Part shown: in pieces, positions 50,201-63,772 of the stretch | Position numbering within the stretch: the first letter of the stretch is position 1 | How the letters are laid out: every line of letters starts with the position of its first letter | Assembly (NCBI RefSeq): GCF_000349845.1 | Contig: NC_020829.1 | Location: forward strand, 5,277,001-5,341,000 | Origin: Pseudomonas sp. ATCC 13867 | GTDB taxonomy: Bacteria; Pseudomonadota; Gammaproteobacteria; Pseudomonadales; Pseudomonadaceae | Length of the DNA stretch: 64,000 nucleotides | Direction: 5' to 3' | Position numbers and translations under genes: made by a program | Notes under the pieces: model-generated | Seen by the model: only the letters and a program-made list of their open reading frames with translations | Databases searched by the model: none | What the model was told of the DNA's origin: nothing

Positions 50201-50253
50201 GATAAGTATCCACCTTGCCCACACCCGTCGAAGCACTCACCAAGGACCGCCCC

Positions 50254-51363
50254 ATGACCACGCTGACCAGCACTCCCCGCGCCGATGGCTTCCGCATGCC
50301 GGCGGAATGGGAACCCCATACCCAGACCTGGATGGTCTGGCCCGAGCGTCCGGACAACTGGCGCCTGGGCGGCAAGCCCGCGCAGGCCGCCTTCAGCGCC
50401 GTGGCCCGCGCCATCGCCCGCTTCGAGCCGGTGACCATCGGCGTCTCCGCCGGTCAGTACGAGAACGCCCGCGCCCAACTGGCCGACGCAACGAACATTC
50501 GCGTGGTGGAAATCAGTAACGACGACGCCTGGGTGCGCGACACCGGCCCGACCTTCGTCACCGACGACAAGGGCGAAGTGCGCGGCGTGGACTGGACCTT
50601 CAACGCCTGGGGCGGCCTGGAAGGCGGCCTGTACTTCCCCTGGCACCGCGACGACCAGGTGGCGAGCAAGATCCTCGGCATCGAGCGCTGCGCCGGCTAC
50701 CGCACCGAAGGCTTCGTACTGGAAGGCGGCTCGATCCACGTGGACGGCGAAGGCACCCTGATCACCACCGAGGAATGCCTGCTCAACCACAACCGCAACC
50801 CGCACCTGACGCGCGAAGAGATCGAGGCCAACCTGCGCGGGCACCTGGCCATCGACACCGTGATCTGGCTGCCGGACGGCCTGTTCAACGACGAAACCGA
50901 CGGTCATGTGGACAACTTCTGCTGCTACGTGCGCCCCGGCGAAGTCCTGCTGGCCTGGACCGACGACGTCAACGACCCGAACTACGCGCGCTGCCAGGCC
51001 GCCCTGCGCGTGCTGGAGACCGCCCGTGACGCCAAGGGCCGCCAACTCACCGTGCACAAGATCGTCATCCCCGGTCCGATCCATGCGACCGAAGCCGAGT
51101 GCGAAGGCGTCGACATGGTGATCGGCACCCAGCCGCGCGATCCGTCGATCCGCCTGGCCGGCTCCTACGTCAACTTCCTGATCGTCAACGGCGGCATCAT
51201 CGCCCCGCGCTTCGACGATCCGGCGGATGCCGAGGCCGAAGCCACCTTGAAGCGCATCTTCCCCGAGCACGAAGTGGTGATGGTACCGGGCCGCGAGATC
51301 CTCCTGGGCGGCGGCAACATCCATTGCATCACCCAGCAGCAGCCGGCACCGCAGAAGCGCTGA
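50254..51363 (+). CDS. aguA: Agmatine deiminase AguA
   Basis: 369 residues of the guanidino-modifying superfamily. Catalytic Cys358 is in [13 protein letters not shown]; upstream Asp/His/Glu residues lie in [24 protein letters not shown] and DGHVDNFCC. AguA converts agmatine to N-carbamoylputrescine and ammonia. In PAO1 the product is hydrolysed by AguB, encoded just upstream of aguA; that gene is missing here. AAGGA before the ATG sets the start. Confidence 0.96.
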
Positions 51364-51376
51364 CTCGCTGGCACTG

Positions 51377-51413
51377 AAAAAGGGCCGTCGCCTTCCCGGA
51401 CGACGGCCCTTTT
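51377..51413 (+). terminator. Terminator after aguA
   Basis: AAAAGGGCCGTCG (51378-51390) pairs perfectly with CGACGGCCCTTTT (51401-51413); the T-run is in the stem base. Confidence 0.9.
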
Positions 51414-51446
51414 ACATTCCGCAGAAGCCCCTACCGGAACGTCTCG

Positions 51447-51522
51447 TGTAGGAGCGAGCTTGCTCGCGAACCGCATCGGCTCCGGCGCCGCCGGCGAATC
51501 CGTTCGCGAGCAAGCTCGCTTA
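51447..51522. repeat. Paired inverted REP element 4 (one arm degenerate)
   Basis: REP unit at 51447-51470 and inverted unit at 51503-51522. The second arm lacks two C bases before its TAC end, so it has begun to decay. It lies between the convergent aguA and oprE terminators. Confidence 0.88.
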
Positions 51523-51544
51523 CGAAAAGCAGCCCGGCGCCCAA

Positions 51545-51578
51545 GAAAAAAACCGCCGCCTCTTGCGAGGACGGCGGC
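51545..51578 (-). terminator. Terminator of oprE
   Basis: CCGCCG (51553-51558) with CGGCGG (51572-51577), reinforced by an inner CCTC/GAGG pairing and followed on the minus strand by T7. Confidence 0.85.
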
Positions 51579-51598
51579 TTTCGGAGAGCCCGCCAGAC

Positions 51599-52957
51599 TT
51601 ACAGCAGCGGGATGGTGTAGCTGACGATCAGGCGGTTCTCGTCCTGGTCGCGCTGGGTCGCGGTGCCCGTGCCGCTGGTCGGCAGGCCACTGCGCAGGGC
51701 AGCGTTCTTCCAGGTGAAGCCCAGGCCCTTGAAGGTGCCGTCCGGGATCACGTAGGCCAGGGAGATGTCACGCTCCCACTCGCTCTTGTCGCCATACGCG
51801 GTGTCGATGTTGTCGCCGCGCAGGTACAGGGTCTGGAAGGTCAGGCCCGGCAGGCCGGACTGGGCGAAGTCGTAGCCGTAGCGGACCTGCCAGGTGCGCT
51901 CGCCGGCGCGCAGGAACTTGCCGATCTGCACGTCGGTGATCAGGTAGGCCGTGGCGCCGTCACCGTTGTTGATGAACGGGAAGTCGCTGTCGCCGCTGAG
52001 CTGCTGGTAGCCGGCGCCGAAACTGTGACCGCTCACGGTGTAGGTGAACAGGCCGCTCCAGGCGCGGTTGTCGACCTCGCCCTTGGTCACGCCGCTGCCG
52101 TAGTAGCCGGTGGTGTAGAAGTTCTTGTCGTGGCCGTTCTTGCCGTCGTCGCTGCTGTGGAAGTAGCGCAGGTCGCTCTTGAGCACGCCCGGGCCGATCG
52201 CCCAGCTGTGCTGCAGGCCGAGGAAATGCTGTTTGTAGAAGTCCTGCAGGTTGCCGTAGTAGTACTGCAGCGTCAGGTCCTTGGTCAGCTTGTAGTCGGC
52301 GCCGCCGTAGTAGAACTTGTTGACGAACTCGCCGGTGCGGGCGTTGTTGGCGCCGGCGATGGACAGCCCCTCGTTGTTGCTGGAGCTGCGGCCCTTCGTG
52401 TGTTCCAGCTGGCCGCCGATCAGGGTCAGGTCCTTGATCTCGTTGGAGGTGATCTGGCCGCCGTCGAAGGTCTGCGGCAGCAGGCGGCCGTCGTTGTAGG
52501 TGACCACCGGCAGCTTCGGCAGGAGGGTGCCGTAGCGCAGCTCGGTGGAGGACACCTTCACCTTGCCGGTGGCGCCCAGGTGGGCGAAATCGTCCACCGC
52601 ACGGCCATCGCTGTCGGTGGGGAAGACAGTCCCGGAAAAGTTCGAGCTGCTCGGGTTGTAATGTGTGCCCTTGCCACTGTCGAGGCGAACCCCGAGCAGG
52701 CCCAGCGCGTCGACGCCGAAGCCCACGGTGCCTTCGGTGAAGCCGGAGGTGTAGTTGAGCAGGAAGCCCTGGCCCCACTCTTCCTGCTTGCTCGGCTCGT
52801 TGCTGCCGTTGCGGTTATCGGTGTTGATGTAGAAGTTGCGCAGGGTGAGGCTGGCCTTGCTGTCCTCGATGAACCCGCCGGCGACGGCCGACTGGGCCAG
52901 GCCTGCGGCAGCGATGGCGAGCGCCAGGCTCGATTGTGTGAGAGTGCGGCTTTTCAT
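51599..52957 (-). CDS. oprE: OprD-family outer-membrane porin, OprE-like
   Basis: 452 residues with a Sec signal peptide ending SAVA near residue 26, then the OprD-family start GGFIEDSKASLTLRNFYINTD. Alternating beta-strands run to the end, VSYTIPLL. These are 18-stranded monomeric channels for small amino-acid-like or anionic solutes. The position after aguA matches PA0291 (OprE), although OprD paralogues are numerous and OprQ or another member is possible. The promoter region and 5' leader extend into a 738-base gap. Confidence 0.85.
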   Translation of the reverse strand: MKSRTLTQSSLALAIAAAGLAQSAVAGGFIEDSKASLTLRNFYINTDNRNGSNEPSKQEEWGQGFLLNYTSGFTEGTVGFGVDALGLLGVRLDSGKGTHYNPSSSNFSGTVFPTDSDGRAVDDFAHLGATGKVKVSSTELRYGTLLPKLPVVTYNDGRLLPQTFDGGQITSNEIKDLTLIGGQLEHTKGRSSSNNEGLSIAGANNARTGEFVNKFYYGGADYKLTKDLTLQYYYGNLQDFYKQHFLGLQHSWAIGPGVLKSDLRYFHSSDDGKNGHDKNFYTTGYYGSGVTKGEVDNRAWSGLFTYTVSGHSFGAGYQQLSGDSDFPFINNGDGATAYLITDVQIGKFLRAGERTWQVRYGYDFAQSGLPGLTFQTLYLRGDNIDTAYGDKSEWERDISLAYVIPDGTFKGLGFTWKNAALRSGLPTSGTGTATQRDQDENRLIVSYTIPLL

Positions 52958-53695: not shown

Positions 53696-54820
53696 TCAGT
53701 TATTTCCTACCGCCGAACTGGTGCCGATGAAGGACGCCGACGGCAGCAGTTGGCTGATGAAGCGGTTCCAACGGGTAATGTTGGCCGGCCCGATGAACAC
53801 CACGTCCTGCGGCTGCATGGCGAAGTCGCGCGCCAGGGCGAAGGCCGTGGGCCGCTTCGCTTCCAGGTGGAAGACCTGTGCCGTGACGGCGGCCTGGGCG
53901 CCGTTGGCGCTCGGCTGCAACTGGCCGGCGCGGATCACGTAGACCGAGTCGCCGTCGGAGGTTTCCGGGCTGAGGCCGCCCGCGCTGCCCAACACTTCCA
54001 GCAGCGTCAGGCCGGTGGTGCGGTAGGTCACCACTTGCGGACGCTCGACCTCGCCCACCACGTAGACCTTCTTGCGATCGTTGTAGGGCAGGTGGATCTG
54101 GTCGCCGTTCTTCAGGTAGATGCCGCTCAGGGTGGAACCGGTGCGGTTGAGCGCATCGACGTCGATAAGGTACTCACGCCCACCGCGCCTGAGCGTCAGC
54201 CCCGACAGGTCGGCCTCGCCGGCGATCACGCCGGCCTTGCTCACGGCCTGCACCAGCGTCGTCGGCGTGTTGTTCAGCTCCATCTGGCCGCCGTTCTGGA
54301 AGGCCCCGGACATCACCACGTGCTGGCTCGCATAACGCAGCACGGTGACGTCCACCTGCGGGTCGACGATGCCCTTCCTGGCCAGTCGGCGGGCCAGTTC
54401 GCCGCGCAGCATCGTGGGCGTCCGGCCTTCCGCCGCCACGGTGCCGGCGTAGGGGAAGAAGATGTTGCCGTCGGCGCCGACCACGCGGCCGTTGGCTTCC
54501 ATCTGCTGCGTCGAGCCGGGGCTGGTCAGTTCCGGGTGGTCCCAGACGGTGACCAGCAGGACGTCCCCCGCGCCGATCACGTATTCGCCCTGCTGCGGCC
54601 GGTACGACAGCAGCTCCGCCGGCAGCCCCGGATCATTGCCGCGGGCCATTTCCTGGCTTTGCAGCACTTGCGGCGTGATGGGGACGAGGGTGATGCGCAT
54701 GCCCTCTTTCTGCGCCTCTTTTTCTATATCGGAATCCGTCATGTGCTGACCGGGGGAGAACACACAGCCTTGTAGCGTCAGACTGCCGACAACAAGACCG
54801 ATCACGAACAGAGTTTTCAT
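53696..54820 (-). CDS. Polysaccharide export lipoprotein, Wza type
   Basis: 374 residues. A lipoprotein signal ends LTLQGC (Cys19). The polysaccharide export domain (PF02563) begins YVIGAGDVLLVTVWDHPEL near residue 78, and SLBB domains follow (VVMSGAFQNGG, KVYVVGEVERPQVV). The final helix segment resembles the outer-membrane-spanning amphipathic helix of Wza. It forms the octameric outer-membrane channel for the polymer. No Wzc copolymerase gene is present in the window; it may lie upstream beyond its edge. It is the last gene in the operon. Confidence 0.92.
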   Translation of the reverse strand: MKTLFVIGLVVGSLTLQGCVFSPGQHMTDSDIEKEAQKEGMRITLVPITPQVLQSQEMARGNDPGLPAELLSYRPQQGEYVIGAGDVLLVTVWDHPELTSPGSTQQMEANGRVVGADGNIFFPYAGTVAAEGRTPTMLRGELARRLARKGIVDPQVDVTVLRYASQHVVMSGAFQNGGQMELNNTPTTLVQAVSKAGVIAGEADLSGLTLRRGGREYLIDVDALNRTGSTLSGIYLKNGDQIHLPYNDRKKVYVVGEVERPQVVTYRTTGLTLLEVLGSAGGLSPETSDGDSVYVIRAGQLQPSANGAQAAVTAQVFHLEAKRPTAFALARDFAMQPQDVVFIGPANITRWNRFISQLLPSASFIGTSSAVGNN

Positions 54821-54862: not shown

Positions 54863-56263
54863 TCAGAACGCGTTACGGTGGACGAACCCTTTGAACAGGG
54901 TCAGCCCAACGATCTTCAGGTCCCACCAGACGGACCAGTTCTCGATGTAGTCCAGATCGAACTCGATGCGTTTCTGCATCTTTTCCAGGGTGTCGGTCTC
55001 GCCACGCCAGCCGTTGACCTGGGCCCACCCGGTGATACCGGGCTTGACCTTGTGGCGCAGCATGTAGCGACTGACCTGACGGCGGTATTGCTCGTTGTGC
55101 GCGACCGCATGGGGCCGGGGCCCTACCACCGACATGTCGCCGCGCAGGACGTTGAAGAACTGCGGCAGCTCATCCAGCGAGGAGCGTCGCAGGAACGCGC
55201 CCAGGCGGGTGACACGGCAGTCGTTGCGCGAGGCCTGGATCACCTGCGCACCGTCCTCCATGACGGTCATGCTGCGGAACTTCCACACGCGGATCGGCCG
55301 GCCATCCATCCCGTAGCGGGTCTGGCGGAACAGCACCGGGCCGCGCGAGGTGAGCTTCACCGCCACAGCGATCAGCAGCATTGGCACCGACACCAGCAGC
55401 AGGATCAGCGAGGCGAGGACCACGTCCTCGATGCGCTTGAGCACTGCGTTGGGCCCGTCCATAGGGGTGTCGAAGATGCTGATGGTTTCCAGGCCGTTGA
55501 TGCTCTCGCTGCGCGCGTGCAGCAGGTCGAACATGAACAGGTCGGGAATCAGGTAGACCGACACCGTGGTGTCGGAGAGTTCGCGAATCAGTTCGTTGAG
55601 CAGCGGCTCGCGGGAGAGCGGCAGGGTCAGGTAGACCTTGTCGATCTGTCCGCTGCGCGCCGCCTCGATCAGCGCCAGGCGCCCGCCCTTGACCGCCACC
55701 CGCGTATCCAACGCCATCTGCTGCGGCCGGTCGTCGTAGAAGCCGACCAGGCGCAACCCCATCCACGGTGCATCGAGGATGGTCGAGGCCAGGTGCGCGC
55801 CGACTTCCCCGGTGCCGTAGATGGCGACATTGCGGCTGTTGAAACCATGCCGGCGCGCCAGGCGCAGGAGGATGCGCAACAGCAGGCGGTACGCACACAT
55901 CACCAGCAGCGCAACGGCGAACCAGACGAAGCGGGAGGCGTCGATGACGATGCCGTGGCGCACGGCCACGTCCAGCAGCAGCACGGCGAAGAACGTCAGC
56001 GACCAGTAGCTGGTGACGATCAGCGACTCGCGCAGCATCGATTCGCCGCGCCAGGAACCGTAGAGCCGGTTGAGCTCGCCCAGCCAGTGGAACAACATCA
56101 CGCACAGCAGCACCGACACCCAGGCACGGGAATCCGGCAGACCGCTGCCGTCACTCAGGAGAATCGCCCCGGAGAGGACGATGACCAGCAGATCGAGCAG
56201 ACGGTGAGCCAGCGCCAGAAGTGACTGGTTGGCCCGCAGTATTCCCTTCGATCGAATGGACAT
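54863..56263 (-). CDS. Undecaprenyl-phosphate sugar phosphotransferase (WcaJ/PslA-type)
   Basis: 466 residues. Residues 10-130 hold four membrane helices; about 135-260 is a CoA-binding-like nucleotide fold (NVAIYGTGEVGAHLA). The C-terminal ~200 residues form the initiating transferase with KRIEDVVLASLILLL, FRQTRYGMDG, WKFRSM, RSSLDELPQFFNVLRGDMS and VGPRPH. It moves a hexose-1-phosphate to undecaprenyl phosphate, starting the repeat unit; glucose is likeliest in this subgroup. GAGG precedes the ATG. It lies between the export and nucleotide-sugar genes. Confidence 0.92.
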   Translation of the reverse strand: MSIRSKGILRANQSLLALAHRLLDLLVIVLSGAILLSDGSGLPDSRAWVSVLLCVMLFHWLGELNRLYGSWRGESMLRESLIVTSYWSLTFFAVLLLDVAVRHGIVIDASRFVWFAVALLVMCAYRLLLRILLRLARRHGFNSRNVAIYGTGEVGAHLASTILDAPWMGLRLVGFYDDRPQQMALDTRVAVKGGRLALIEAARSGQIDKVYLTLPLSREPLLNELIRELSDTTVSVYLIPDLFMFDLLHARSESINGLETISIFDTPMDGPNAVLKRIEDVVLASLILLLVSVPMLLIAVAVKLTSRGPVLFRQTRYGMDGRPIRVWKFRSMTVMEDGAQVIQASRNDCRVTRLGAFLRRSSLDELPQFFNVLRGDMSVVGPRPHAVAHNEQYRRQVSRYMLRHKVKPGITGWAQVNGWRGETDTLEKMQKRIEFDLDYIENWSVWWDLKIVGLTLFKGFVHRNAF

Positions 56264-56371
56264 GGAAAACCTCACAACACTCGGCGCCCATCCCGGCGCC
56301 GCTGCCACTCAAGGCAGACGGATCGATGACGCGCCGCCACGGCCGACCGGCCAGGGCGGCGGCGAGCGGGC

Positions 56372-57247
56372 TCAAGGGCGGGCGTCCAGCAGCAGTTGCT
56401 GCAGGTAGCGGCCATAGCCGGTCTTGCCCAGGCGCTCGGCCTGCAAGGCCAGGCCCTCGGTGGAAAGCCAGCCCTGCTGGAAGGCGATTTCCTCCAGGCA
56501 GGCGACCTTCAGCCCCTGCCGCGCCTCGATGGTCTGGACGAAGTGACCGGCCTCCATCAGCGATTCGTGGGTCCCGGTGTCCAGCCAGGCGAAGCCGCGC
56601 CCCAGCAGGCTCACGCGCAGCTCGCCGAGCGCCAGGTAGGCATTGTTGATGTCGGTGATTTCCAGCTCGCCACGCGCCGAGGGGCGGATCTGCCGGGCCA
56701 TCTCCAGCACCCGGTTGTCGTAGAAGTACAGGCCAGTGACCGCGTAGTTGGAGCGTGGCAGCCGTGGCTTCTCCTCGATGGAGAGCACGTTGCCGTCGTC
56801 GTCGAACTCCACCACGCCGAAGCGCCCGGGGTCGGCCACCTGGTAGCCGAACACCGTGGCGCCGCGCTCGCGCGAGGCGGCCTCGCGCAGGGTCTGGGTG
56901 AAGCTCTGGCCGTAGAAGATATTGTCGCCCAGCACCAGGCACACCGAGTCGTCGCCGATGAACTCCGCGCCGATCAGGAAGGCCTGGGCCAGGCCGTCCG
57001 GCGAAGGCTGCACCGCGTACTGCAGGCGCACACCGAAACGTTCGCCGTCGCCGAGCAGCGCGCGGAAGTTGGCCAGGTCGGCGGGCGCGCAGATCAACAG
57101 GATGTCGTCGATGCCGGCGAGCATCAGCACCGACAGCGGGTAATACACCATCGGCTTGTCGTAGATCGGCAGCAGTTGCTTGGACACCCCCAGGGTAATG
57201 GGGTGCAGGCGGGTGCCGGAGCCTCCGGCGAGGATGATGCCTTTCAT
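56372..57247 (-). CDS. rmlA: Glucose-1-phosphate thymidylyltransferase RmlA
   Basis: 291 residues. The nucleotidyltransferase signature [26 protein letters not shown] and the substrate-site DNIFYG, EEKPRLP and WLDTGT motifs are all present. It makes dTDP-glucose, the precursor of dTDP-rhamnose and related sugars. rmlB, rmlC and rmlD are not adjacent, so the later steps must be supplied from elsewhere. It is in the operon 37 bases after the GT4 gene. Confidence 0.95.
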
Positions 57248-57284: not shown

Positions 57285-58376
57285 CTATTCGAGCGAGTTG
57301 AAGCGCGGCAGACAGTCCGCGCCTTCGGCTAGAAAGGAGTCGATCAGGCTGGAAAGACGCAGCGCGGAAAGGTCCCAGGAGTAGCGCAGGACGTTCTCCA
57401 ACCCGGCGTTGCGCAGGCCGCCGCGCAACTTCGCGTCCCGCAGCACGCGGCGCATCGCCGTGGCCAGGGCCTGCGTATCGACGGGATCGAAATACAGCGC
57501 CGAGTTGCCCAGCACCTCGGGTATCGAAGCGCTGCGGGCGGCGATCACCGGGCAGCCGCAGGCCTGCGCCTCCAGCGGCGGTATGCCGAAGCCTTCGTAG
57601 AGCGAGGGGAAGACGAAGGCCGCCGCGCCGCGGTACTCCTCGATCAGCCGGCTATCGTCGATGCGCCCCAGCCAGCGCACGCGTTCGTGCTGTTCGCTGG
57701 ACTGCAGCCGGTAATCGACGAAGCTGCGGCTGGCCGAGCCGACGATATGCAGGTCGACGTCCAGGTCCCGCAGCAGGTCGAACGCCTCGATCATCTGGGC
57801 GAAATTCTTGTGCGCCGCCGGCGAGGACACCGCCAGCAGATAGGGCCGCCCGCCCGTGGCCACGGGGCCGGGACAGAACGCGGCGGAGACCGCGTTGCCG
57901 ATCACATGGATGCGCTCGGCGGGGAAGCGGTAGTGCGCGGCGATCTCCCGGCGGGAGAACTCGCTGACGCTGACCAGCGCCAGCACCCGCCGCAGCATCA
58001 GCGGGGTCAGCGTCCGGTACAGCACGCGGAAGCGCCAGGAAAAGCTCTCGGGATGGCGCACATAGGCGATGTCGTGGTGCGTCGCCAACTGCCGGCCGTA
58101 GGCCAGCGGCGCGGTATTGCACAGCGACACCAGCAGCGGCCGGCCGTTGCGCGCCAGCCACAGCGGCAGGTCGACCTGCTCCCACAGGTGCCCGCGGTGG
58201 CGCCCGATGCGCTCGACGTTCAGGCGCTGGGCGATCTCCTCCCGCGGCAGCGGGCCGGGTGGCGCGACGAAGCGCACATCGCCGCGCAGGCGCGCCAGCG
58301 ACAGCGAGATCTGCTCGGCGAAGCGTTGCACGCCGCTGATTTCCTGGGACAGGAAACGCCCGTTGATCACGATCAT
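57285..58376 (-). CDS. GT4 glycosyltransferase
   Basis: 363 residues. GT-B fold: N-domain with [19 protein letters not shown]-domain with [17 protein letters not shown] and the donor-binding [23 protein letters not shown], whose two glutamates are the GT4 E-x7-E pair. It adds one sugar to the lipid-linked unit at the cytoplasmic face. GAGAGGA sets the start at MIVINGR. It follows the fusion gene by 32 bases. Confidence 0.92.
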
Positions 58377-58408: not shown

Positions 58409-61033
58409 TCAACGCAGCGACAGCTGGTAGCCCGGGGCGCTGCGCAGCAGCGTCGGAGCGTTATCGATACGGATGCTGGCCTGGCACGCGCCACCGCCCG
58501 AGGGGCAGTCCCAGGGCACTTTCTCGCCCTGGCCGGTGCTCACGCCGTCGAAGTCGCGCAGGCGCCAGAGGGTGTCGGAACTGCCCGGCTGGCTGGTGAT
58601 CTTCAGGCTCTGCTCGCGGCCCAGGGTCCAGGCCACCAGGATTTCGTCGTCGGCCTTGGCGAAACGCAGCAGATAGACGTTCGGGTCATCGTTGGGCACC
58701 CGGCCGGCGAAGCGGTAGTGGCCGATGATCGCGGCCACGCTGGTCATCGCGTGGTAGGCCGGCTTGGGCTGGCCGTCGGCGGTGAGCAGGCCGAAGTTGT
58801 GCTCCATGTCGCGGCGGTCGATGCCGTCGTCCACCAGGTCGTACCACCAGGAGCCCTTCACGTTCGGCAGGCTGCGCAACAGGAAGTAGGCGCGCGCCAG
58901 GTAGGCCGCCTGGCGTTCGCGGCTGATCCCGCAGGCGCCGTCGTGGGCCGGCCAGCTGAACTCGGTGAAGTACAGCGGCACCGGCTTGCCGGCGGCGCGT
59001 TCGAGCGTCTGGTTGACGCCCTTGAACCACGCCAGCCAGTTCTCCGGCGTCGCCAGCTCGCCCTCGCAATACACCGACGGGTGCAGGGACAGGCCGTCGG
59101 CCACGTCCAGCAGCCCACCGGCGACCAGGCGCTCGGCGAAGCCCTGGCGGATGCCGCGCAGGGTCACCGCGCCGGCGATCACCTTGGCCTGCGGGTCCTC
59201 CTCGCGGATCGCCTGGGCGGTGGCGCGGACCAGGGTCAGGTAGTCGTCGCTGAATGCCTTGTCGGTGGGGTTTTCCACATCCCACTCGTTCCACACCTCG
59301 TAGATCGCCACCTGCCCCTTGAAGCTGCGCACCACGTAGCGCACATAGCGCAGGAAGGCGGCGCGGGAGGTCTCGTCGCGCGGCTTGGCGTTGCCGTGGA
59401 ACTGATTCTCCAGGCCGAGGATCAGCAGGGTGCTGATACCCAGGCTGCGGGTGCTGCGCAGTTGCGCGCGCCAGCTGGCGTCGATGGACAGCACGTTGGC
59501 CTCGCGCTCGACGCTGGACCAGAAGGCGTCGTCGCGGAACGATAGGATGCCGGCCCGTTGCGCCAGGCGGTTGATGCCGTCGCGGTTGCCCGGACGGAGG
59601 TTCTGGTGCGTGCTGGCGCCGACGATGAATTCCGGCGCGTCCTGTCCGGCCGCCGGCGTCTGGCTGGCCAGCGCCTGGGGCGCCTGCCCTGCTCCGGCGA
59701 ACAACAGTGTCCCGCCCAGCAGCAGGCTCAGCAACCGTCCCTTGCCTTGCAGGCGCCAGGCCTGCGGCGCCGGCGGCGTGGCCAGCTCATCCGGCAGACG
59801 CAGCGCCCGGCCGATCGCCAGGCCGAGGAACAGGCTGGGCACCTGCGCCTCCAGCACGTCGCTGGTCCAGCCGACCAGCAGGGTGCAGTAGGCGATGCCC
59901 AGCAGCGCGCGCGCCTCACTGCCCGGCTGGCGCTGCAGGCGCATCAGCATCGGTACCGCCAGCGCATAGAGCGCGACGCCGGCGACGCCGAACAGCAGCC
60001 AGAGGTACAGCAGCGAGTTGTCCGCCACCGCCAGTTGCTCGACGCCGAACACCGGGTACGCCCCGTAGGCGCTTCCGGTCATCCCCAGCCCGGCGCCGGT
60101 GACGGTCCAGCCGTTGTATTCCATCACCTTGATCAGACTCGGCCAGGTGTTGACCAGGCGATCCACCATCGAGCCGATCAGGTTGTCGCCGCTGGAGCTG
60201 GCCAGGTACGGCTCGATGCCCCCGAACAGGCCATAGAGCGGCAGCGCCAGCGCGCCGAGCACCACCACGAGGGCGGCCAGCAGGAACAGCAGGCGATTGC
60301 GGGCGACGCTCATCACCAGCAGGGCGATGACGAAGGCGACGGCGGAGGATTTGTTGGTGGTCAGGGCGATCCCCGCCAGCGCCACCAGGTAGATCAGCCC
60401 GCGCACCAGCAACGGTAGCCGGAACGAGCCCAGGTACAGGCTGAAGATCGACAGCATGATCGCCAGGCTCGACGACATCCGCGAGAAGCCGGCGATGCGA
60501 TCCAGTCCGTAGGCGCTCCAGGCGCGGTTGCCGCTGATCTCGACCCCGCCCATCGAGTAGGTGTATCCCTTCCACGGCACGTTGCCGAGGATGTCCAGCA
60601 CGATGCCCGCCAGCGAGGCGACGAGGCAGAAGACGATGGCCCAGCCCACCGCCTTGCGGTGCATCTCCAGGTAGGGTCCGCAGAGCAGGCCGAACAGCAG
60701 CGGCGCGTAGATGAACACGCTGAACGCCCCGGCCTGCCACTGGGCGCCGTGCAACCGCCCGAGCATCAGCGAGGCGGCCGCCAGCACCAGCAGCAACCAC
60801 AGGCCGCGCTGCTGCGGACGGGTGAACAGCTCCCAGCCCACCGCGATCACGCAGGCCACCTTCGGCAGGTAGACCAGCGCCGACAGACCGACCTGGTCGG
60901 CATAGAAACGCAGCGCCCCGCTGAACGTCTCCACCAGCAGCAGCGACACCAGCACCGCCAGCGCCAGCAGCGAGCGGTCGAAGGCGATCCCGCGCGAGGG
61001 CTCAAAGCGTGGATACGGCGATTGCAGATCCAT
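58409..61033 (-). CDS. Wzy/ligase-like membrane domain fused to periplasmic glycoside hydrolase
   Basis: 874 residues. Residues about 20-415 hold some ten to twelve membrane helices with a large periplasmic loop (280-340), as in Wzy polymerases and O-antigen ligases. Residues 430-460 are basic then hydrophobic and end AQALASQ-like, resembling an internal signal peptide. Residues 465-874 form a clan-A (GH39/GH5-like) hydrolase: YEVWNEWDV with acid/base Glu583 and YFTEFSW with nucleophile Glu691, plus a C-terminal beta domain. The frame is unbroken. PslG is a separate protein of the same hydrolase type in the Psl system. The start overlaps the upstream GT4 stop by 32 bases. It probably polymerises and trims the product, which is inference. 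Confidence 0.85.
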   Translation of the reverse strand: MDLQSPYPRFEPSRGIAFDRSLLALAVLVSLLLVETFSGALRFYADQVGLSALVYLPKVACVIAVGWELFTRPQQRGLWLLLVLAAASLMLGRLHGAQWQAGAFSVFIYAPLLFGLLCGPYLEMHRKAVGWAIVFCLVASLAGIVLDILGNVPWKGYTYSMGGVEISGNRAWSAYGLDRIAGFSRMSSSLAIMLSIFSLYLGSFRLPLLVRGLIYLVALAGIALTTNKSSAVAFVIALLVMSVARNRLLFLLAALVVVLGALALPLYGLFGGIEPYLASSSGDNLIGSMVDRLVNTWPSLIKVMEYNGWTVTGAGLGMTGSAYGAYPVFGVEQLAVADNSLLYLWLLFGVAGVALYALAVPMLMRLQRQPGSEARALLGIAYCTLLVGWTSDVLEAQVPSLFLGLAIGRALRLPDELATPPAPQAWRLQGKGRLLSLLLGGTLLFAGAGQAPQALASQTPAAGQDAPEFIVGASTHQNLRPGNRDGINRLAQRAGILSFRDDAFWSSVEREANVLSIDASWRAQLRSTRSLGISTLLILGLENQFHGNAKPRDETSRAAFLRYVRYVVRSFKGQVAIYEVWNEWDVENPTDKAFSDDYLTLVRATAQAIREEDPQAKVIAGAVTLRGIRQGFAERLVAGGLLDVADGLSLHPSVYCEGELATPENWLAWFKGVNQTLERAAGKPVPLYFTEFSWPAHDGACGISRERQAAYLARAYFLLRSLPNVKGSWWYDLVDDGIDRRDMEHNFGLLTADGQPKPAYHAMTSVAAIIGHYRFAGRVPNDDPNVYLLRFAKADDEILVAWTLGREQSLKITSQPGSSDTLWRLRDFDGVSTGQGEKVPWDCPSGGGACQASIRIDNAPTLLRSAPGYQLSLR

Positions 61034-62237
61034 GGCGGACTCCACGGTTGAGCAGGGTGTGGCGCAGGATGGCTTCGTACTCGTCGAGCATCCGCTCGAC
61101 GCTGAGCATCGACGCCACGCTGTCCCGCGCGCGGGAGGCCAGGCGCTGGCGCAACGGCGCGTCCTGGGCCAGGCGGCGGATCGCCTCGCCCAGCGAGTCG
61201 GGACGTTCGGGTGCGCAGTGCAGGCCGTTGAGCCCGTCGCGGACGATCTCGACGAGGCCGCCACGGGTCGAGACGATCACCGGCAGGCGATGGGCGCAGG
61301 CCTCCAGCGCCACCAGGCCGAAGGATTCGGGGCCGACGCTGGGCACCACGGCCACGTCGATCTCGGCGAAGAACTCCGAGGACTTGCGGTAGCCGACGAA
61401 GTGCACGCGCTGCGGGTCGGCGGAGGACTTCAGCGCATTCACGTAGGCCGCCTCGCCGCGCCCGGCGATCAGCAACGAGGCGTCCAGCGACTGTTTCTGG
61501 AACTGCTCGATCAGCCACTCCACGCCCTTGTTCGGGGTCAGCGAACCGATGAAGCCGAAGCGCAACGGGCGACGCGGCATCACGGCGGCCGGCGCACCCT
61601 GTGCCGGTGCGAACGGCGCGCTGTTGTAGACGACATAGCGCTGGCTGTGGGCGAAGTAGCCCGCCTCGACCAGGGCGGCCAACTGGTAGCGGCTGACACC
61701 GACCACCGCATCGACCCGCGCCGACGCCTCCGCATGGGAACGCCTAAGCAGCGCACAGGAACCGCACTGCCGCTGGCAATGCCGCCCCTTGTTGAAGCGC
61801 ATCCCGCGCGGGCAGGTGAGGTACTGGTCGTGCAGGATCTGCACGATGGGCAGCCCGGCCTCGCGGATCGCATCCCAGGCGGCGATGGACCAGCCCGACA
61901 GGTTGTGGCACACCACCAGGTCCGGCTCGCTCTGCGCCAGCACCTGCGCCAGCACCTCGCGCATGCCCCGGTTGTAACGGTCCAGGGCATGCCAGGCGAG
62001 CCGCCGCAGCGGGCCCTGGCGCTGCTCGGAGAACGGCCAGTACAGGTTGCGCATCCCGGCGCGCAGCACCGGCACGCCATTGTGCGAGTCGCTCCGCAGG
62101 CCGGCGTCCGGGCCGGTGCTCAGGACCTGCACCGCATGGCCGCGCGCCTGCAGGCCCTCGACCATCGACTGCAGCATCACCTCCGCGCCGCCGCCGATGT
62201 GCGGGGCATAGAGGGTGTTGAGGAACAGGAGTCTCAT
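61002..62237 (-). CDS. GT4 glycosyltransferase with cysteine cluster
   Basis: 411 residues. N-domain LNTLYAPHIGGGAEVMLQSMV is the acceptor-side start of the GT4 fold. C-domain: GFIGSLTPNKGVEWLIEQF and VVPSVGPESFGLVALEACA, the donor-binding pair of glutamates. A cysteine-rich insert, CPRGMRFNKGRHCQRQCGSC, near residue 143 could bind zinc; similar inserts occur in some GT4 relatives. Its start overlaps the GT2 stop, and its end overlaps the fusion gene. Confidence 0.9.
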   Translation of the reverse strand: MRLLFLNTLYAPHIGGGAEVMLQSMVEGLQARGHAVQVLSTGPDAGLRSDSHNGVPVLRAGMRNLYWPFSEQRQGPLRRLAWHALDRYNRGMREVLAQVLAQSEPDLVVCHNLSGWSIAAWDAIREAGLPIVQILHDQYLTCPRGMRFNKGRHCQRQCGSCALLRRSHAEASARVDAVVGVSRYQLAALVEAGYFAHSQRYVVYNSAPFAPAQGAPAAVMPRRPLRFGFIGSLTPNKGVEWLIEQFQKQSLDASLLIAGRGEAAYVNALKSSADPQRVHFVGYRKSSEFFAEIDVAVVPSVGPESFGLVALEACAHRLPVIVSTRGGLVEIVRDGLNGLHCAPERPDSLGEAIRRLAQDAPLRQRLASRARDSVASMLSVERMLDEYEAILRHTLLNRGVRHGSAIAVSTL

Positions 62238-63232
62238 AGCGGATACATCCGGCTCATGCCCAGCGCGCCGGCCTCACCGTCGCGAATGGCGCGCAGCAGC
62301 AGTTGCAGGCGTCCGTCGCGGCCATGCCGCCGGGCGAAGAAGTGCAGCAGGCGCAGGAACACCCAGCGGTTGAAGCGGTACATCAGCGGCGAGCTGACCC
62401 ACAGGTTCTTGTCGAACCAGGCCTGGTTGCGCGCGGCGTAGTAGGCGCGCAGGTCCGAGCTGCCCAGCAGGTAGGTCTCGTAGATGTTGGAGGTGCGCTG
62501 CTTGAGGTTCCACGAGCGCTCCAGGTCATCCAGCCCGGCGTCGGGCACCAGGTAGAGATGCCCGCCCGTGGCGCTGATGCGGAAGGTGTATTCGGTATCG
62601 TCGGCATAGAGCACCAGCTCGCGGCGCGGCAGGCCGATGCGCTCGATCAGGCTGCGATGCGCCAGCAGTCCGCCGTAATAGGCGAACGGCAGTTCCAGCA
62701 GCGGCTCCACCGGACGCGGGTGCGGCTTGCCCCAGGGCGTGCGGCGCCAGAGCTTGTACGGCAGCTGGTGCACGTGGAAGCCGAAGTAACTGGAGCGCGG
62801 CGGCGCGATGAAGCGCGTCGGCACGCCGGCGACGACATCCGCCTGGTGCTCCGGGCGGAAGCCCAGCACCGCAGTCTTGTCCGCCCCGTGGCGTTGCATG
62901 CAGTCGAGCAGGCGCTGCTTGAGCAGGGGGAAGGCGCCCGGCATCGGCGCGTTGTCGTCGTCCATCAGCCAGATGTACTCGCAGCCGGTCTTCAGCGCGG
63001 CCGCGATGCCCACGCAATAGCCGTTGGCCGAGCCGGTGTTGCTGTCCAGCTCGATCACCTGGACGCGGTTGTGCCAGAGCCTGAACAAGCGGTCCAGTTC
63101 GGCCACCGAGGCGTTGCTGACGATGATCGCGCGGCCAATGTCCGGCTCCAGGAAGGCCCTGGCCAGCAACTCCTCCAGGTATTCCAGGCGGTCGCCATAG
63201 GTCAGCGTCACCAGTACAGTCGATCCACTCAT
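62234..63232 (-). CDS. GT2 glycosyltransferase, galactofuranosyltransferase-like
   Basis: 332 residues of GT-A fold. MDDDNAPMPG carries the DxD metal site. The later DDTEYTFRISATGG is the ED(T)E-type catalytic region also found in GlfT2 and rhamnosyltransferases. Donor sugar is unassigned. It begins 33 bases after the RfaH-like gene and overlaps the next gene by four bases. Confidence 0.9.
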   Translation of the reverse strand: MSGSTVLVTLTYGDRLEYLEELLARAFLEPDIGRAIIVSNASVAELDRLFRLWHNRVQVIELDSNTGSANGYCVGIAAALKTGCEYIWLMDDDNAPMPGAFPLLKQRLLDCMQRHGADKTAVLGFRPEHQADVVAGVPTRFIAPPRSSYFGFHVHQLPYKLWRRTPWGKPHPRPVEPLLELPFAYYGGLLAHRSLIERIGLPRRELVLYADDTEYTFRISATGGHLYLVPDAGLDDLERSWNLKQRTSNIYETYLLGSSDLRAYYAARNQAWFDKNLWVSSPLMYRFNRWVFLRLLHFFARRHGRDGRLQLLLRAIRDGEAGALGMSRMYPL

Positions 63233-63265: not shown

Positions 63266-63772
63266 TCAGGCCCGCCATCTGTCCCCGTCGGCCGCCGAGA
63301 GCCGGCTCAGTGGAACGCGCACGCGCTGTTCGCGCTGCAACAGGTTGAGCAGGATCAGCGCCCGTTCGGCGCCGTCGTCGCAGAGGAAGATCGCCTCCAC
63401 TTCGCAATCCCCGGCGCAGTGCAGCCGTACCGCCTGGCCTTGCTGGAAGCGGCTGGCCGGCCGCTCGGGCATCGCCCGCAGGCGCTGGCGGATGTCCTCC
63501 ACCAGTTCGTCGGCCACCGGCAGCGGCTGCGGACCGAAGCTGACGATGCGCGCCACGCCGCGGGTCGAGCGGATCGGGAACCAGTTGTCGTGCTGCTGAT
63601 CCAGGTGGATGAACAGGTAACCGGGGAACAGCGGCTGCGGCCGCGCACCCTGCCCGACCACCGGCCGGTAGCAGGCGAAGCCCTGGCGCGTCAGGTTTTC
63701 CTCGGCGCGCAGCTCCTGGTGCGGCTTGGTCTGGATCAGGTACCAGCGATGCAGCGGGTCGGCTTGGCTCAT
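63266..63772 (-). CDS. rfaH: RfaH/NusG-family transcription antiterminator
   Basis: 168 residues. The NGN domain starts WYLIQTKPHQELRAEENL and includes FPGYLFIHLD and RSTRGVARIVSFG, with the C-terminal KOW-like part after about residue 108. These are marks of the RfaH branch rather than the essential NusG. Such proteins load on RNA polymerase at an ops element and suppress Rho in long polysaccharide operons. Its place as second gene of the operon suits self-contained control. It overlaps the upstream gene's stop by four bases. Confidence 0.9.
   Translation of the reverse strand: MSQADPLHRWYLIQTKPHQELRAEENLTRQGFACYRPVVGQGARPQPLFPGYLFIHLDQQHDNWFPIRSTRGVARIVSFGPQPLPVADELVEDIRQRLRAMPERPASRFQQGQAVRLHCAGDCEVEAIFLCDDGAERALILLNLLQREQRVRVPLSRLSAADGDRWRA

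Follow-up and report, generated by a model that had tools for sequence, protein, structure and literature searches.

A Wzy/WaaL-type membrane domain and a PslG-like glycoside hydrolase in one open frame of a Pseudomonas exopolysaccharide cluster

One open frame with two domains

The window analysed here, a stretch of 64,000 nucleotides from Pseudomonas sp. ATCC 13867 (NC_020829.1, positions 5,277,001 to 5,341,000), carries an exopolysaccharide gene cluster with an unusual member. This gene is one open frame of 874 codons with an ATG start, and its product combines a membrane domain of the Wzy/WaaL type with a glycoside hydrolase domain resembling PslG. A first-pass annotation, made from the letters of the window, had proposed a single protein fusing two such domains; the 874-residue frame is indeed present, and it is whole in 16 of the 25 genomes of the genus. 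The parts of the gene are as follows, with the ratio of nonsynonymous to synonymous changes given as pN/pS and the predicted local distance difference test of the structure model as pLDDT.

58409..61033, minus strand: fused gene, 874 amino acids (aa), single open frame found in 16/25 genomes of the genus
59801..61033, minus strand: N half, residues 1-411, Wzy/WaaL-type membrane domain, 12 helices in the model
59645..59800, minus strand: join, residues 412-463, the least conserved part (pN/pS 0.67; low pLDDT)
59690..59737, minus strand: short hydrophobic helix, residues 433-448, read as a signal-peptide remnant (from the model; stand-alone hydrolases start signal-peptide-like there)
59666..59674, minus strand: possible signal peptidase site, residues 454-456 (A-L-A), from conservation in 16 fused proteins
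58409..59644, minus strand: PslG/GH39-like hydrolase domain, residues 464-874
59285..59287, minus strand: Glu583, acid/base by comparison with PslG E165 (E in 74/75 aligned)
58961..58963, minus strand: Glu691, nucleophile by comparison with PslG E276 (E in 74/75 aligned)

Upstream of the ATG, the frame runs on to another start codon. The chosen start is nevertheless supported, because the fused relatives share their starting residues and separate N genes begin close by. Comparison of nine chosen pairs gives pN/pS values of 0.37 for the N half and 0.34 for the hydrolase domain, indicating purifying selection on both. A sequencing error or a decayed gene is therefore ruled out, its probability being negligible given a fused frame common to 16 genomes and selection acting on both halves. 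By these measures, the fused gene is confirmed as real and conserved, and no artefact.

Structure modelling and a topology check, both suggested with the first annotation, were run on the full-length protein (mean pLDDT 85; predicted template modelling score, pTM, 0.58). The N half adopts a fold of the WaaL/SEDS (WaaL/RodA) type, with 12 helices and two large periplasmic loops; helix ends were picked by hand from the model and membrane sides taken from loop charges, and a crude 19-residue hydropathy count gives 8 segments. The closest solved fold is that of the O-antigen ligase WaaL (7tpg), yet identity is 13%, and the fused protein differs from WaaL in having a hydrolase attached. A profile of the N family found nothing among Protein Data Bank sequences at E <= 10. 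The Wzy_C family (PF04932) does not match the fused protein up to E 1; 16 of 35 relatives match it at E <= 0.1 (best 6e-7), and the one relative with bits shown scores 21.8, below the cut-off of 31.7.

By sequence comparison, the C half is a glycoside hydrolase resembling PslG, and both catalytic glutamates are present. A clan A barrel is predicted for it, and it scores 27.9 bits with the GH39 profile, above the cut-off of 26; several relatives, the PslG of genome G012 among them, score higher for PF00150 than for GH39. The glutamate alignment comprises 75 sequences (60 separate and 15 fused), of which the 75th (L065) ends before both sites; the assignment of Glu583 and Glu691 made in the first pass stands. 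Likeness to PslG extends to the GH39-like barrel, both glutamates and a membrane segment in front, at 26% identity over 311 residues. In the Psl system, hydrolase and polymerase are separate genes, with PslJ assigned by gene position in G012 and a Wzy_C match. A kinship of the N half with PslJ was considered and dropped, as BLASTP gave no meaningful match (E 3.2). Likewise, an 883-residue frame in genome G1016 was rejected as an independent fusion: by eye it consists of a hydrolase and a leucine-rich-repeat-like tail and is no polymerase fusion. A related hydrolase with such a tail in one frame, again by eye, lies at L122:4263-6914, in a genome of the phylum other than the window's.

Split pairs and the distribution of the fusion

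Uninterrupted matches across both halves were found in the window's genus only, in samples drawn at the level of genus, family, class, order and phylum; these searches would miss a fusion of the hydrolase to an unrelated polymerase family unless its hydrolase matched. A database in which the fusion is common, named at the outset as one of two findings that would refute the proposal, is not what the genomes searched present. Among the nine genomes of the genus that lack the fused gene, two match through a PslG-like gene in a psl-type cluster. In the family sample, 83 of 298 genomes match: 16, all of the window's genus, do so undivided, and the other 67 match in two or more places, with a stop between, or with one part only. 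Matches were found in 1/369 genomes of the class sample, namely the window's own (E <= 1e-20), in 6/341 of the order sample and in 14/398 of the phylum sample (both E <= 1e-15).

We kept 80 of 96 confirmed named loci, which comprise 8 fused genes, 60 adjacent pairs, and 12 polymerase genes only. The fused loci belong to P. nitroreducens (two), P. nicosulfuronedens, P. pseudonitroreducens and four others, and they are not additional cases, since each agrees with one of the 16 at every position over 2,500 bases. Their species names put the window's genus with P. nitroreducens, and we read this genus as Pseudomonas sensu stricto. Among the 60 split loci, the end of the polymerase gene falls about where the join lies, and the hydrolase gene comes next on the same strand. 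In 15 of these, a single in-frame stop is all that separates the two frames; one locus (L055, which is L039 in another listing) has two in-frame stops between; and in the remaining 44 the frames differ, the hydrolase match beginning from 43 bases before to 116 bases after the polymerase stop.

When 88 N halves were placed on a midpoint-rooted tree, all 15 fused rows grouped in a single clade (support 100/100). A genome of the same class but outside the family (G1313) has an adjacent pair in a Wza-Wzb-Wzc cluster, with identities of 26% and 34% to the halves of the fused protein. With this pair and those in related genera, the split arrangement has a wider distribution than the fusion, and the fused form, a single clade, is most simply a derived one. 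The stretch holding the G1313 pair (L123:3862-11371) has a G+C content of 38%.

The surrounding cluster and the role of the N half

In the window, the transcription order is RfaH-type, GT2, GT4, fused gene, GT4, RmlA, WcaJ-type and Wza, all on the same strand (GT, glycosyltransferase).

63266..63772, minus strand: RfaH-type antiterminator of the cluster (TIGR01955 above cut-off)
62234..63232, minus strand: GT2 glycosyltransferase (PF00535)
61002..62237, minus strand: GT4 glycosyltransferase, 3' end overlapping the start of the fused gene
57285..58376, minus strand: GT4 glycosyltransferase (profile match)
56372..57247, minus strand: RmlA glucose-1-phosphate thymidylyltransferase (TIGR01207 above cut-off)
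54863..56308, minus strand: WcaJ-type undecaprenyl-phosphate glucose phosphotransferase, the priming enzyme (TIGR03023 above cut-off; 4 hydropathy segments)
53696..54820, minus strand: Wza-type outer-membrane export lipoprotein (PF02563, PF22461, PF18412)

Beyond the window, in locus L019, RfaH is preceded by a DegT aminotransferase, Wzx, a GT2, Wzc and WbqC. This Wzc carries a Wzz domain, and a Wzc with such a domain is the usual chain-length factor. By hydropathy, Wzx has 12 segments, the fused protein 8, WcaJ 4 and Wzc 3, and the remaining cluster genes 0 or 1, so that besides Wzx, WcaJ and Wzc the fused protein is the only multi-spanning product. Since those three already have roles, the N half would fill the vacant Wzy place, and from its operon position it is likely the polymerase of the cluster. 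Fold, topology and operon position together bear out the Wzy/ligase-type assignment of the first-pass annotation.

The cluster shares gene content and order with the EPS273 locus of P. stutzeri 273, strain 273 itself being compared by its published table, ordered by letter, rather than by sequence (PMC5532660). According to the accessible part of that account, the genes are R (DegT), Q (Wzx), P (GT2), O (Wzc), N (WbqC), M (RfaH), L (GT1), K (O-antigen ligase, 417 aa), J (glycosyl hydrolase, 445 aa), and I and H (both GT1). K and J are thus separate entries, in contrast to the one protein of 874 aa in the window, and these two genes, like the 60 adjacent pairs among our 80 loci, agree with the earlier expectation that polymerase and hydrolase are separate in other systems. 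The window's cluster adds RmlA, WcaJ and Wza, none of which is in the EPS273 table; that table in turn lists further genes, A to G. With EPS273-O removed, polymer was nearly absent and very little biofilm formed, and removal of H together with I altered the molecular weight profile of the polymer; the mutants described in the accessible text are these, with none of J or K seen (PMC5532660). An EPS273-like order was seen by sequence in Stutzerimonas loci, among the 20 of 80 loci whose gene order was inspected. Two other candidates were set aside: the Pap cluster of P. fluorescens F113 has a different gene set (PMC7716237), and nothing fitting the window's gene set was seen in the accessible account of the Psl-like clusters of plant pseudomonads (PMC7926942).

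We think it unlikely that the N half is instead a WaaL-like ligase handing polymer to another acceptor. WaaL is its closest solved fold, EPS273-K was named an O-antigen ligase, and some plant-associated Pseudomonas as well as P. oryzihabitans have an N-type gene without this cluster, beside an AT3-SGNH acyltransferase. Yet the cluster is without any other polymerase candidate. Moreover, WaaL ligase needs a catalytic histidine in its large periplasmic loop, and no histidine position is invariant among 53 relatives in the large periplasmic loop (residues 271-339) of the N-half family; the window's own loop has none, but 32 of the 53 have a histidine somewhere in the loop, and its positions were not matched one by one to those of WaaL.

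The N-type genes next to acyltransferases are differently arranged. In P. asturiensis (L058:6697-13742) and P. caricapapayae (L101:4532-12210) the gene lies near an MdoG gene and upstream of the AT3-SGNH acyltransferase, with the hydrolase in between in the former and without it in the latter. P. oryzihabitans (L112:8971-12229) has the N-type gene and the acyltransferase, without a hydrolase. None of 13 tested cluster genes was matched in these three loci.

The join and what the fusion may do

Between the two domains, pLDDT falls below 50 at residues 427-431 and 444-464, with a 16-residue helix at 433-448 in the model. The join evolves faster than either domain, yet Pro452 and Ala456 are invariant in all 16 fused proteins, and residue 454 is A, S, T or G in every one. 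Such constraints agree with what signal peptidase requires of its cleavage site. The separate hydrolases start signal-peptide-like by eye, and 54 of the 60 carry an [AVSTG]-x-A motif; their start codons were chosen by rule, and one row (L064) is shortened. Since the polymerase gene of the split loci ends near the join and the stand-alone hydrolases start in this way, we read the join as a remnant of the hydrolase's former signal peptide, in line with the embedded signal peptide suspected from the letters alone.

This origin raises the question of whether the join is still cut. It is an appreciable possibility that one gene yields two proteins, with signal peptidase cutting the join and freeing a normal periplasmic hydrolase, so that the fusion would matter only for equal dosage; two separate proteins are the other finding named at the outset as one that would refute the proposal. 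The position of the join and its fixed residues amid otherwise variable sequence favour such cleavage, as does a hydrophobic stretch that is short and not called a membrane helix; the FbcH cytochrome b/c1 precursor of Bradyrhizobium is a precedent for a polyprotein cut by signal peptidase. We also scored the 16 fused proteins with a homemade signal profile, for which 50 distinct signal windows of stand-alone hydrolases (orthologues) supplied the training set and 72 polymerase-only proteins the controls. The join ranks first in 9 of the 16, and the window's own join scores 16.7, the highest of the 16, with Ala451 favoured over Ala456 in this protein. Against cleavage, the N half of the other 7 contains a site that scores above the join, only 4 of the 16 joins exceed the best control (10.5), and the profile is homemade, trained on orthologues and applied to a set in which one row (L024) is truncated at the N terminus. 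A further ribosome start within the gene, which would also yield a hydrolase with its own signal peptide, seems quite improbable. The codon at the beginning of the hydrophobic stretch is ATG in 9 of 16 genes, GTG in 2 and TTG in 2 (the window's among them), and one more has CTG with ATG as the next codon. However, in 2 of 16 the codon is CTG with no ATG at this place, such codons are frequent in hydrophobic stretches, and no clear ribosome-binding site was seen by eye, no dedicated test for one having been made.

Building on what was computed (one frame, both folds, the catalytic residues, separate-gene relatives, and one clade), we infer a topology, a direction of change, polymerase activity, trimming of the polymer and partial tethering. 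The protein is probably a fused version of an adjacent EPS273-K-type polymerase and EPS273-J-type periplasmic hydrolase of a Wzx/Wzy/Wzc/Wza cluster, made by one stop loss, with the signal peptide kept as the join and the product tethered at least in part. Most simply, the stop between the two genes would have been lost once, within Pseudomonas sensu stricto. The 12-helix N half would start and end in the cytoplasm, and the retained signal peptide would span the membrane once more, placing the hydrolase in the periplasm beside the site where Wzy joins lipid-linked repeat units. Several points weigh against this proposal: the join is not called as a membrane segment by the 19-residue hydropathy count, a result at odds with a firm tether; its kept alanine and proline could mean cleavage rather than tethering; the relative placement of the two domains is unreliable in the model at this pTM; the full-length protein is known here from sequence alone; the N half has no Pfam match of its own; the absence of a further polymerase candidate applies to the cluster genes, the rest of the genome not having been searched for another Wzy; and with the tree rooted at its midpoint only, a derived fusion rests on the distribution and the G1313 pair.

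In the Psl system, production benefits from PslG that is held at the membrane and has active glutamates, and it is lowered by PslG that has been released; PslA, PslD and PslE help to hold PslG at the membrane (PMC6813494). A tether would fix the membrane association that PslG gets through partner proteins, and our preferred reading, by analogy with Psl, is that membrane placement gained "for free" may explain the persistence of the fusion in 16 genomes of different species. The polymer made by this cluster is presumably what the hydrolase cuts. Direct control of chain length by the fusion is plausible; a one-piece make-and-trim machine is a more doubtful extension. In it the hydrolase, kept at the polymerase's periplasmic exit, would cut the lipid-linked chain as it grows, and linker and activity ratio, along with Wzc, would decide chain length. 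Several exopolysaccharide systems encode a hydrolase able to destroy their own product, and the role of such enzymes is debated. For PslG, the available text describes an inner-membrane enzyme that aids synthesis and a released one that degrades, with earlier reports split on its need (PMC6813494). A natural fusion that links such an enzyme to the likely polymerase is genetic evidence that both act at the same site; since split and fused orthologues both exist, it permits a clean comparison and may offer a natural test of how bacteria control slime polymer length.

The adjacent pair is already published. The fused arrangement, of which the first-pass annotation knew no described example, appears new relative to the literature searched, most subscription journals lying outside its coverage, and is undescribed in the accessible parts of PMC7716237, PMC7112194, PMC7926942, PMC11340318, PMC5532660 and PMC6813494. 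Zymomonas cellulose operons have BcsZC and BcsAB fusions, which likewise join parts of an exopolysaccharide machine and in BcsZC include a periplasmic hydrolase; these are of other families, however, and the hydrolase is joined to an outer-membrane pore and not to a Wzy-type protein (PMC7112194).

At the margins of the cluster, the upstream end encodes a 470-residue protein (L019:9409-10821) with no Pfam match at E 0.001, whose sequence start resembles an FAD-binding enzyme by eye; of the 80 fetched loci one had a match to it, and many may stop short of that place. Downstream, the cluster is flanked by an agmatine deiminase gene and an OprD-family porin (window positions 50215-52957), as it is in the relatives L014-L016.
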